Shown: one piece after another, positions 25,151 through 27,701 of the stretch
Numbering within the stretch: the stretch's first letter is position 1
Layout of the letters: every line of letters begins with the position of its first letter
From: Cnuella takakiae
Lineage (GTDB): Bacteria; Bacteroidota; Bacteroidia; Chitinophagales; Chitinophagaceae
Length of the DNA stretch: 36,292 nucleotides
Assembly (NCBI RefSeq): GCF_001953305.1
Contig: NZ_MTFE01000010.1
Coordinates: forward strand, 356,337-392,628
Direction of reading: 5' to 3'
Program-made: the position numbers and the translations under genes
Notes under the pieces: model-generated
What the model saw: the letters and a program-made list of their open reading frames with translations, nothing else
What the model was told of the DNA's origin: nothing
Database searches by the model: none

Positions 25151-26743
25151 TTACTCTTCCTCCAACATCATATCATTATCTGCGTCGGGCAACACTTCCA
25201 CACCGCGGAGCTTGCGCTGGATGGCGCGGGTGCGTACGCCCACCACACCCTCAAGGTCGTTGAGACCGCGCTGGATATTGGTTTGTGCTTTTTCCAGCAA
25301 GCCACCGAACTGCTCGAACTCTTTTTTCACGGCGCCCAGCACCTGCCACACTTCGCCGCTACGTTTCTGGATGGCCAGGGTGCGGAAGCCCATCTGCAGT
25401 GAGTTGAGGATAACAGCCAGCGTGGTAGGGCCGGTGATCACCACGTTGCAGGTGCGCTGAATATCTTCGAGCAGGGCGGCCTTGCGGGTTACTTCGGCAA
25501 ACAAACCTTCGAAAGGCAGGAAGAGGATACCGAAGTTGGTGGTGTTGGGCGGATCGAGGTATTTTTCACAAATGTCTTTCGCCATCTTCTTGATCACCAC
25601 TTCCAGGTTCTTCTGCGCTGCTTCAATAAGCGCAGGATCGCCATGGTCGTATGCTTCCTGCAGGTGTTCGTAGGCGTCTTTGGGAAACTTGGCATCGATG
25701 GGCAGCCATACATAGTTGCGGTCGCCTTCACGGTTGGGAAAACGAACGGCAAATTCCACCCGTTCCTGGCTGCCAGCCCTGGTAGCAATGTTGGCGCCGT
25801 ACTGCTCGGGTGCCAGGATGTTTTCGAGCAGCATCTGCAACTGTACTTCGCCAAAGCCGCCGCGCATTTTTACATTGCTCAGCACTTTTTTCAATCCGCC
25901 TACATCCTGCGCAAGGGTCTGCATTTCACCCAGTCCTTTCTGTACGCTTTCCAGTTGGCGGCCCACCTGTTCGAAGGAATGACCCAGGCGTTCGTGCAGG
26001 GTTTTCTGGAGTTTTTCTTCTACAGTCTCGCGGATGTTTTCGAGTTTCTTTTCGGTATGCTGCACCAGTACCTGCTGCTCTTTTTCCAAAGCTTCAAACT
26101 TCTCGCGTTGTACGCTGTTGAGGCGGTCCACGCCGTCGGTAAAGGTTTGGTTGAATCCTTTGAACGAAGCCTCCAGGGTTTGCCGCATAAGGTGGCTATC
26201 GGCCTTGGCCTGTTCGTTCACCGCAGCCAGCTTTTCTTCCATGCGGGTGTTCATCCGCTCCAGCTGCATGATGTTGCGGTCGGAGGCATCCTGCTGTACT
26301 TTTTTGAGGGCTTCCAGCCTGGTGCTTTGCTCGGTGGTAAACTCTTTCAGGCTTTGGGAAAGTGCCTGCCTGTTCTCGCGGCTGTTTTCGGCTACCCGCT
26401 CCATCAGGGCATTCATCTTTTCCTCCAGCGTGTTGTTGATGCCAGCCATAGCAGTGCGGTTACCTTCGGTGATGAGCCCGAGGGTTTGGGTAAGCTCAGT
26501 ACGCAATTGCTGGATGGAGCCTGCTATTTCGTGGCGGGTTTCCCGCGAGGCAGTGGCGAGTTCCGTACGGTTATCGCGCAGGTCGGTGCGGAGCGACTCG
26601 GTAAGGATATCGAGTCGTTGCGTTAGGGCTTCAAAGCGTGCGGAGAGTGCTTCCACACTGGCATTGGGTTTGGGCCGAAAGGCTATGATGAGGATAATAG
26701 CAAGGGCAACCAGGATACAGAGCAGGATCAGCAGGGGGTCCAT
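25151..26743 (-). CDS. rmuC: DNA recombination protein RmuC
   Basis: A 530-aa protein from ATG 26743. The N-terminal membrane helix is MDPLLILLCILVALAIILII. Residues about 30-290 are a long coiled coil (repeated EALxxRF and EKxxAVNEQAK patterns). The RmuC domain follows (about 300-490): LSNVKMRGGFGEVQLQMLLE, FAVRFPNR, VWLPIDAKFPKDAYE and FGILFLPFEGLFAEV. RmuC limits inversion between short repeats and is proposed to act with nuclease-like activity in DNA rearrangement. The tail is acidic (DADNDMMLEEE). The 506-bp GxxExxY cassette begins only 45 bases upstream of its start, so the cassette sits in or beside the rmuC promoter. The upstream in-frame extension to 26812 runs through the repeat and is not coding. 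Confidence 0.93.
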   Translation of the reverse strand: MDPLLILLCILVALAIILIIAFRPKPNASVEALSARFEALTQRLDILTESLRTDLRDNRTELATASRETRHEIAGSIQQLRTELTQTLGLITEGNRTAMAGINNTLEEKMNALMERVAENSRENRQALSQSLKEFTTEQSTRLEALKKVQQDASDRNIMQLERMNTRMEEKLAAVNEQAKADSHLMRQTLEASFKGFNQTFTDGVDRLNSVQREKFEALEKEQQVLVQHTEKKLENIRETVEEKLQKTLHERLGHSFEQVGRQLESVQKGLGEMQTLAQDVGGLKKVLSNVKMRGGFGEVQLQMLLENILAPEQYGANIATRAGSQERVEFAVRFPNREGDRNYVWLPIDAKFPKDAYEHLQEAYDHGDPALIEAAQKNLEVVIKKMAKDICEKYLDPPNTTNFGILFLPFEGLFAEVTRKAALLEDIQRTCNVVITGPTTLAVILNSLQMGFRTLAIQKRSGEVWQVLGAVKKEFEQFGGLLEKAQTNIQRGLNDLEGVVGVRTRAIQRKLRGVEVLPDADNDMMLEEE

Positions 26744-26788
26744 GGGCGGGGTGTTTTTGCTAAAAATATTCGCAAAGTAAGGGCATTT

Positions 26789-26822
26789 CACGCAACGGCG
26801 CAACGAAGCCACGGCGCAACGG
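26789..26822 (+). repeat. Left terminal inverted repeat (34 bp)
   Basis: CACGCAACGGCGCAACG followed by AAGCCACGGCGCAACGG. It matches the complement of 27261-27294 at 30 of 34 positions. It is built of CGCAACG words with a period of about eight bases. Confidence 0.85.
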
Positions 26823-26878
26823 ATACATTGATTAAACCAATGTTAGGTTTTATGTTTAGGAAACCAACGCTGCTTACA

Positions 26879-27259
26879 ATGATTCAGGAAAATGAAATAG
26901 CCAGGAGAGTATTGGATATCTGCTTTGCTATGCATCGAACCTATGGGCCTGGACTGTTTGAGCATGTGTACGAAGAAATACTATGTTATGAACTTCAGGT
27001 AGAAGGATTTCATTTCCGCAGACAACACGCCATACCCGTTGTACATAAATCCATTAAGCTAGAAGCAGGGTTTAAAGCAGACGTAATTGTTGAAGACTTT
27101 GTTATTTTAGAATTGAAGAGTGTAGAACAGCTAAAAGATATTCACTTTAAACAGCTGCAAACCTACCTGAAGCTTTCCGGCATCAAACTGGGGCTATTAA
27201 TCAACTTCAATGTTTCGCTCCTTAAAAATGGTATTCACCGCATCGCCAATAATTTGTAA
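26879..27259 (+). CDS. GxxExxY-family PD-(D/E)XK nuclease-like protein
   Basis: A 126-aa protein when started at ATG 26879 (MIQENEIARR), the start that fits the family length; ATG 26840 and TTG 26828 are in-frame alternatives with no family support. The name-giving motif is G25-L-F-E28-H-V-Y31. The nuclease-like core is D68 (FKADVIVED) and E78-L-K80 (ILELKSVE), with KQLQTYLKLSG and LGLLINFNVSLLKNGI after. All catalytic-type residues are kept, so it may cut or bind DNA or RNA, but the family's function is not established. Its A+T-rich base use differs from the window average, and the 34-bp inverted repeats around it suggest transfer as a unit. Confidence 0.88.
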   Translation: MIQENEIARRVLDICFAMHRTYGPGLFEHVYEEILCYELQVEGFHFRRQHAIPVVHKSIKLEAGFKADVIVEDFVILELKSVEQLKDIHFKQLQTYLKLSGIKLGLLINFNVSLLKNGIHRIANNL

Positions 27260-27260
27260 C

Positions 27261-27294
27261 CCGTTGCGCCGCCGCTCCGTTGCGTCGTTGCGTG
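27261..27294 (-). repeat. Right terminal inverted repeat (34 bp)
   Basis: CCGTTGCGCCGCCGCTCC followed by GTTGCGTCGTTGCGTG. The complement differs from the left repeat at four positions (10, 18, 22 and 23). It starts one base past the GxxExxY stop. Confidence 0.85.
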
Positions 27295-27303
27295 CAACAA
27301 TAC

Positions 27304-27332
27304 AAAAAGCCCCCGCAGCAACTGCGAGGGCT
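27304..27332 (-). terminator. Intrinsic terminator of the RRM gene
   Basis: On the minus strand, AGCCCTCGCAG and CTGCGGGGGCT pair around TTG with one mismatch and are followed by TTTTTG. It lies 24 bases past the stop. Confidence 0.85.
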
Positions 27333-27355
27333 CAATGCTATAAAGCAAAAGCTGA

Positions 27356-27661
27356 TTAGTAGCGCTTGTTGTAACCGCCACCGCCGCCGAAGTTGCCACC
27401 ACCACGTGCAGGGCGATCTTCTTTAGGCTTAGCTTCCATAACCTTGATGTTGCGACCTTCTACGGTTGCGCCATCCAGTTCGGAAATTGCAGTTTGAGCG
27501 GCAGCGTTGTCGGGCATCTCTACGAAGCCGAAACCACGGCTGCGGCCGGTTTCGCGGTCCAAGATAACTTTGGCAGAAGATACTTCACCGTACTCGGCAA
27601 AGAAACCGCGGAGGTCTTCGTCCTGAACGTTGAAGCTCAGGTTTGAAACGTAAATGTTCAT
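27356..27661 (-). CDS. Small RRM RNA-binding protein
   Basis: A 101-aa RNA-binding protein with a single RNA recognition motif (1-78). RNP2 is IYVSNL (3-8) and RNP1 is RGFGFVEM (about 42-49), with the aromatic residues needed for stacking on RNA. The tail RGGGNFGGGGGYNKRY is Gly-rich like that of cold-inducible RNA-binding proteins in cyanobacteria and Bacteroidota. It probably binds single-stranded RNA as a chaperone or regulator of translation. It is transcribed alone from a well-formed promoter at 27702-27731 and ends at a strong terminator. Confidence 0.93.
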   Translation of the reverse strand: MNIYVSNLSFNVQDEDLRGFFAEYGEVSSAKVILDRETGRSRGFGFVEMPDNAAAQTAISELDGATVEGRNIKVMEAKPKEDRPARGGGNFGGGGGYNKRY

Positions 27662-27701
27662 TGTTGTTGGTTAAAAAAATAAATAATGGTCTGAGGCGAA
27701 G

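Follow-up and report, generated by a model that had tools for sequence, protein, structure and literature searches.

A GxxExxY gene between inverted word arrays in Cnuella takakiae, apparently one member of a widespread class of bacterial repeat units

The cassette between rmuC and an RNA-recognition-motif gene

The window, by which we mean the whole analysed stretch of 36,292 nucleotides from Cnuella takakiae, contains a small cassette that sits between two genes of the reverse strand, rmuC (25154 to 26743; PF02646 RmuC, E 1.9e-70) and a gene for an RNA-recognition-motif (RRM) protein (27356 to 27661; PF00076 RRM_1, E 8.5e-23), and not within an rRNA gene. A repeat search placed its left inverted arm at 26786 to 26822 of the forward strand, built of four words of about 8 nt (CACGCAACGG CGCAACGA AGCCACGG CGCAACGG), and its right arm at 27261 to 27297, where the words of the left arm are found on the opposite strand; each arm is thus a tandem word array. 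The arms are 37 nt each, 86% complementary and 438 nt apart, and the 34-nt arms with 30 matches around one gene, which an earlier sequence-only reading had described, lie inside them. The gene (26879 to 27259, forward strand) encodes 126 amino acids from an ATG at 26879, although a longer version from a TTG at 26828 is possible, and its TAA stop (27257 to 27259) leaves, as had been stated, a single base before the right arm starts at 27261. The G+C content of the gene is 38.6% compared to 51.2% for the whole window, which agrees with its description as richer in A+T than its surroundings.

Aligned with each other, the two arms reach a score of 49. The highest score among 815 N-free control windows was 39, and block shuffling of the window's flanks (2000 rounds) gave 33 at most. 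No Rfam RNA family was detected in 26500-27700, the sole match (15.7 bits with a gathering score of 91.3) being located outside the cassette. A terminator-like hairpin was read by eye at about 27306-27333, between the 3' end of the RRM gene and the right arm.

A putative PD-(D/E)XK nuclease

In profile searches the window protein matched PF13366 (E 2e-37, 128.5 bits with a cut-off of 22) and TIGR04256 (E 2.8e-38, 130.9 bits with a cut-off of 35), both above the curated cut-offs, and PDDEXK_3 and GxxExxY were its sole Pfam and NCBIfam matches. The residues D68, E78 and K80, to which the sequence-only reading had drawn attention, are invariant in an alignment of 36 sequences together with G23, G25, E28, Y31 and F110, and probably form a PD-(D/E)XK active site. 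The AlphaFold2 model of the protein is confident (pLDDT 95.7, pTM 0.88). Foldseek with this model returned no solved fold at E <= 0.001 (best E 1.8e-3, TM 0.45); its top rows were LHK-Exo, SSO0001 and lambda exonuclease, which we take to be PD-(D/E)XK nucleases, and a tRNA-intron endonuclease was also among them. Searching the solved structures by sequence gave a best E of 0.91, which is chance level.

Inverted arms around GxxExxY and S23 genes

The parent genome (G000) carries seven GxxExxY genes, two of them with internal stops, and eight S23 four-helix genes, one with an internal stop. Reading of the flanks indicated that most of these genes are enclosed by inverted short-word arms, the words differing between units. 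We scored arms by local alignment of the 300 nt upstream of a gene against the reverse complement of the 300 nt downstream, calling them at a score of at least 24 and using as controls the N-free windows from the same loci; by this test 6/7 GxxExxY and 7/8 S23 genes of the parent genome have arms. Across 30 genomes the same holds for 77 of 92 GxxExxY units and 42 of 51 S23 units compared to 38 of the 815 control windows, leaving 15 and 9 units, respectively, below the threshold, and at a score of at least 40 arms remained for 29 GxxExxY and 19 S23 units and for none of the control windows. The GxxExxY sample came from 38 genomes searched, of which 28 gave units, most listed gene fragments being left out, and the S23 sample from 29 genomes (parent and relatives), of which 24 gave units; the S23 loci comprised the eight of the parent, 29 listed ones (one of which, L146, was below the score limit) and 20 chosen by hand from more than 150 listed. 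Removal of repeats left 150 units, of which five were dropped for short flanks, and two further duplicate S23 loci were removed.

We found the same arrangement among the closest named GxxExxY loci. Among the best 80 of 569 relatives, with 49-68% identity, two were dropped for too little flank and 62 of the 78 tested had arms, compared to 3.7% of 438 control windows. In both samples arms flank most of the GxxExxY genes tested, which supports the sequence-only reading. These loci belong to Bacteroidota, Ignavibacteria, Cloacimonadota, Lentisphaerae, Acidobacteria, Marinimicrobia and others, and by reading their arms are mostly, like those of the window, of the CGCAAAG/CGCAACG type across several phyla. 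Since the named loci share words of this type, 37% of mismatched pairs of their flanks pass the arm test too, and the windows are the fair control. The window cassette is therefore apparently one member of a widespread and undescribed class of bacterial repeat units, and the class is not confined to GxxExxY but also includes S23 four-helix genes.

Some arm units nest one inside another. T-runs in terminator orientation adjoin 45 of 238 outer arm edges and A-runs 16 (two duplicate loci being counted twice), as if the units favoured the 3' side of terminators.

Word type and protein

The arms are 30-35 nt long on average and differ in period between the two gene families: S23 arms repeat with period 7 (identity 0.58 and 0.57 at lags 7 and 14, respectively, compared to about 0.3 after shuffling), and GxxExxY arms with period 8-9 (identity 0.36/0.37, shuffled 0.28). 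When each unit was assigned to a family by its nearest arm in other genomes, 106 of 117 units were assigned correctly (65 on average and 83 at most after shuffling); the corresponding test within the same genome was weak (70/111, shuffled mean 60, maximum 81). Within the GxxExxY family, protein identity and arm similarity were correlated across 75 relatives and 56 named loci (Mantel rho 0.52, permutation maximum 0.146), and in the relatives alone it persisted among protein pairs below 55% identity (rho 0.295 compared to a permutation maximum of 0.082). The 56 named loci are those that remained after exclusion of duplicates, of arms that were weak or very long and of loci with short flanks, and the gene end was put at 375 nt where it was unlisted. 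By reading, the arm clusters lean to CGCAAAG/CGCAACG/CGCAGAG, GAACCACRGAG, GAACCATGATTTGG-GGATTT, AACGGAT/GCAGATT or ACACGAATT types, the largest cluster being a mixture of word types, and words differ among paralogs within the parent genome. Part of the correlation between protein and arm could reflect joint inheritance of arms and gene. Overall, the tie between the nuclease-like protein and its repeats is well supported.

Gene-less arms in the parent genome

The sequence-only reading had proposed a search for further arm copies in the parent genome, and such copies exist: the 15-mer CGCAACGGCGCAACG, allowing at most one mismatch, gave 21 matches, two of which are the window's own arms, compared to one for the reversed control. 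A 400-kb sample of the parent genome without any GxxExxY or S23 gene contained 36 N-free inverted pairs at a score of at least 34, of which 20 were word-like by autocorrelation, two of these overlapping and some, such as TTTGTTTATTTTGTTTACT, perhaps being chance products of low complexity. Extrapolated from these 20 pairs, there are perhaps many word-array copies per genome, in the order of hundreds. Arms of resident units found more matches in this sample than arms from foreign genomes, both for GxxExxY (mean 2.8 for own arms, n=5, vs 0.31 for foreign arms, n=55, p 1e-5) and for S23 (4.3, n=7, vs 0.20, n=25, p 5e-4); the window's own arm had one match and two of the seven S23 arms had none. 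The gene-less arms of the parent genome thus match its resident units and not foreign ones. A heptamer pattern gave a comparable picture, since all 19 matches in G000 were TTAGC words, as in its own S23 unit, and 6 of 10 matches in G006 had TGAGC in both words, as in its own unit, while the 24 matches in G014 had mixed words.

The related arm types A (CGCAAAG) and B (CGCAACG) form interlocked units of the order B>A>...B<A<, which is not a palindrome-like nesting, in 6 of 19 clusters and in one more read from the other strand, among loci that were mostly picked by the B pattern. Gene-less interlocked loci of this kind in G000 are L013, L009, L015, L017, L019, L027 and L020. The interiors of 14 units with A/B arms, the window included, are unrelated and share only short matches that we read as nested repeats, and gene-less A/B arms differ little within and across units (B 23.8 vs 23.4, A 21.75 vs 19.9). 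In the G000 sample we also noted REP-like families without word structure, CCCCCTGTCCCCCTAAAGGGGG and GGGGATGCCGAAACAAGTTCGGCATGAC, at L221, L234, L233, L235 and L238, the second of which also occurs inside a word unit at L010.

Inheritance, concerted change of arms and site occupancy

In 64 cases, units from two different genomes have both flanks in common, and 59 of these pairs are of one gene family. The syntenic partner was the best protein match in its genome in 52 of the 59, and the genes are therefore largely inherited vertically. The other five pairs, from three sites, combine a GxxExxY unit in one species with an S23 unit in its partner. dN/dS was 0.05 in the three GxxExxY pairs with the least saturation (the 30 most similar of the 59 pairs were measured and dS was mostly saturated), and orthologous units thus persist under purifying selection where this is measurable. 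In one case, G006 compared to G000 and G001, the orientation of the gene with respect to its flanks is reversed.

Arms within a unit agree more with each other than with those of the ortholog in 37 of 45 syntenic pairs with clear arms, which are not independent pairs, the mean similarity being 39.8 within units and 26.2 between orthologs. At one site the word has changed in both arms (GGCAATCG in G012 vs GTGAATCG in G016), and a second shared site has TTTCAGA vs TGTCTGA. Such concerted change is what quasi-palindrome correction would give, and the arms might accordingly belong to a repeat family of the host, or a neutral one, whose pairing is maintained by template switching and slippage and whose arm-rich intergenic spots are used by the genes as harbours. 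The nesting of some units and the T-runs at their outer edges would also fit passive repeats of this kind. However, arms that predict the gene family in other genomes and follow the relatedness of GxxExxY proteins are not expected from them, nor is the retention of CGCAAAG/CGCAACG-type arms by the closest homologs in several phyla or the match of gene-less arms in G000 to resident units, and we consider this explanation rather unlikely.

The sequence-only reading had asked whether relatives lack the cassette upstream of rmuC, and no GxxExxY gene was indeed present within 1.5 kb upstream of rmuC in seven relatives of the same genus. Since the gene beside rmuC differs among the relatives read, no exact empty site could be defined, and the metH1/metH2 junction was used instead. 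Thirty-three genomes were matched and 30 loci read there, with arms judged by reading: four have a GxxExxY unit, one has an S23 unit, one has both arms without a gene, three have a single arm, one has a Y1_Tnp gene, and nine have a short junction without recognisable arms; of the rest, four failed the motif search, three had no metH1 within reach and four had no separate metH1 stop. The Y1_Tnp gene (IS200-like, RAYT-like; L194 in G001, 2234-2752) is accompanied by TAGGAGTC repeats. Upstream of rmuC, L118 (G016) and L119 (G012) have gene-less inverted units at the same spot with, by reading, quite different words.

This presence and absence at the metH1/metH2 junction (four GxxExxY, one S23, four arms only and nine neither), together with inverted ends and gene-less derivatives, would suit an ordinary small transposon with GxxExxY as its transposase-like nuclease and the arms as terminal inverted repeats. 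Yet no near-identical GxxExxY gene copies were found at different sites, the 52 of 59 pairs argue for vertical inheritance, the interiors of gene-less units are unshared, unlike those of MITEs, and paralogs in the parent genome carry different words, so that an ordinary transposon appears highly improbable. Among the units compared no transposition event, fresh insertion or excision was seen, and no target-site duplication was recognised by eye in genomes that included no close strain pair. The sequence-only reading had likened the cassette to a mobile or selfish element; the link of the nuclease to its repeats, the words following protein relatedness, speaks for the partnership that this implies, but not for recent jumping, since the vertical inheritance together with the dN/dS of 0.05 is a poor fit to a freshly jumping selfish element.

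A candidate for recent transposition in G010 was rejected because its four near-identical gene copies, on four contigs (L059, L067, L068 and L069), share long flanks and were read as one locus repeated in the assembly. Two of the G010 versions are without about 740 bp that is found between 44-nt repeats in a third, which is either an arm-mediated deletion or an assembly artefact.

Units on plasmids

GxxExxY matched 7 of 72,556 plasmid records and had no match on phages. We analysed 14 of 40 plasmid S23 records and 5 of the 7 GxxExxY records with 300 shuffles per locus. All 14 S23 loci (13 cyanobacterial and one from Azospirillum, with the Nostoc loci L320 and L321 being one locus in two strains) lie between inverted repeats that score above their own shuffles (31-82, shuffles at most 33), and the best period of the arms was 7 in 12 and 8 in two, the arms of Stanieria being weakly periodic. 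For GxxExxY, the arm scores of Bernardetia (36), Sphingomonas (41) and Gemmatirosa (113) were above the 300 shuffles and those of the Treponema and Fusobacteria copies (22 and 24) were not; the Sphingomonas copy sits between fabD and fabG. In two cyanobacterial genera an S23 unit with heptamer arms separates cas6 from cas4 in a CRISPR-Cas locus (L322, Anabaena sp. 90, pANA02; L325, Pseudanabaena galeata, pPg_01).

A possible role of the proteins

Since S23 units share, in the excerpts available, the build of the rRNA intervening sequences (IVS) that are excised by RNase III (PMC4990558), we considered that the units may be RNA elements of the same kind, in which the arms pair in the transcript, the unit is cut out by RNase III so that insertions are tolerated, and the protein is either carried along passively or binds RNA. 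Arm mismatches that would give G-U pairs showed no excess in the sense over the antisense transcript (62 vs 84 for GxxExxY, 38 vs 43 for S23). This argues against selection of the arms for forming an RNA hairpin, and the hairpin was set aside. Moreover, the window unit is located outside rRNA genes, and an IVS-like RNA leaves both the word types that follow the protein and the dispersed gene-less arms unexplained. We regard it as improbable.

Instead, we propose that the protein acts on its own word arrays in DNA, in a partnership like that of REPIN-RAYT but run by a nuclease in place of a Y1 transposase, and would give this an even chance of being correct. A GxxExxY or S23 protein would recognise in DNA the array of its own words, probably by binding as an oligomer along the tandem repeats, and would cleave or process the array when its inverted arms become exposed. 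With other array copies as templates, repair could then carry arm pairs to new intergenic sites, and the same repair would homogenise the words, acting in cis on the two arms of a unit and in trans throughout the genome. Such cut-and-copy repair among arrays might produce dispersal, homogenisation, gain and loss of genes inside arms, and flips. That the window protein itself cuts or copies its arms stands at about even odds. We know of no catalytic site in S23, yet the units of both families behave alike, and catalysis by the encoded protein may therefore not be needed; quasi-palindrome template switching together with slippage could homogenise arms without a protein.

In its broader form, the proposal is that GxxExxY and S23, as two unrelated small protein families, each drive a word-array class of their own by recognising, cutting and rewriting inverted arrays, both in place and in trans, and that the copies thereby share the current word of the resident gene, that the heptamers of cyanobacteria, Xanthomonas and Beggiatoaceae would be footprints of S23, and that the rRNA IVS would be one S23 insertion. 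We find this plausible but somewhat short of an even chance. In the portion of the literature found, the intergenic tandem heptamer and octamer repeats of bacteria have no agreed origin, and the class described here supplies a partner gene for them and a cause that can be tested. It also provides two protein families of unknown role with a probable substrate, and REPIN-RAYT would no longer be the only kind of long-lived partnership between repeat and gene. Since the words of one unit change together and those of sister species differ, the units form a natural series in which the joint change of a protein and its repeated DNA site can be followed.

Comparison with known systems

The cyanobacterial heptamers, which we take to be the short tandemly repeated repeats (STRR), are like the S23 arms tandem 7-nt repeats, the window unit itself having 8-nt words. 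According to excerpts of the respective reports, tandem heptamers form 70 and 75 convergent pairs in two Xanthomonas genomes and are in general unlinked to mobile elements (PMC4692102), and intergenic tandem heptamers occur also in Beggiatoaceae, cyanobacteria and Bacteroidetes (PMC4679880). These excerpts make no link to a gene, whereas the heptamers look here like arms of S23 units, and the class adds GxxExxY units as a second type. MITEs are likewise gene-less inverted-repeat units, but the class of the window has neither a classical transposase partner nor a shared interior.

The rRNA intervening sequences have, according to excerpts of the report, complementary sequences at their borders and are cut out by RNase III, with a small S23 four-helix ORF between the borders as in the sister S23 units (PMC4990558). 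The structure of the S23 protein of Xanthomonas campestris is reported to be solved (PMC4990558), and we would expect its gene to be located in GGGAATC arrays. The sequence-only reading knew of no described element of the build of the cassette, but one of similar build thus exists. In contrast to these sequences, the window unit is intergenic and its ORF is GxxExxY rather than S23, and the class has word-array arms, a parallel GxxExxY branch and dispersed gene-less copies.

The closest analogy is with REPIN-RAYT, in which, according to excerpts of the report, inverted repeat doublets are dispersed in extragenic space with a distinct repeat flavour for each protein gene, lateral transfer of the gene is limited at the species level, and repeats and gene are thought to co-evolve (PMC3116915). 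In the parent genome, inverted doublets outside genes with a flavour matched to the partner gene were found here too, and the genes of our class are largely vertical, as the RAYT gene is little transferred. However, the partner in REPIN-RAYT is a Y1 tyrosine transposase, compared to a PD-(D/E)XK or four-helix protein here; the profile library that recognised the Y1_Tnp gene found elsewhere gave no Y1 match for the window protein. The REP is a palindrome tagged by GTAG/CGTC in the excerpts of PMC3733652, whereas the arms of the present class are tandem arrays of 7-9-nt words and those of the window, as read from their sequence, contain no GTAG. Furthermore, the gene lies inside the doublet here, and a single genome carries seven GxxExxY and eight S23 genes of the class. 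In the portion of the open-licence PubMed Central literature retrieved, GxxExxY is mentioned in passing only, and we found no report linking GxxExxY or S23 to word arms. Since each known kind fails a defining feature, we rate the class as new, with a clear analogy to REPIN-RAYT.
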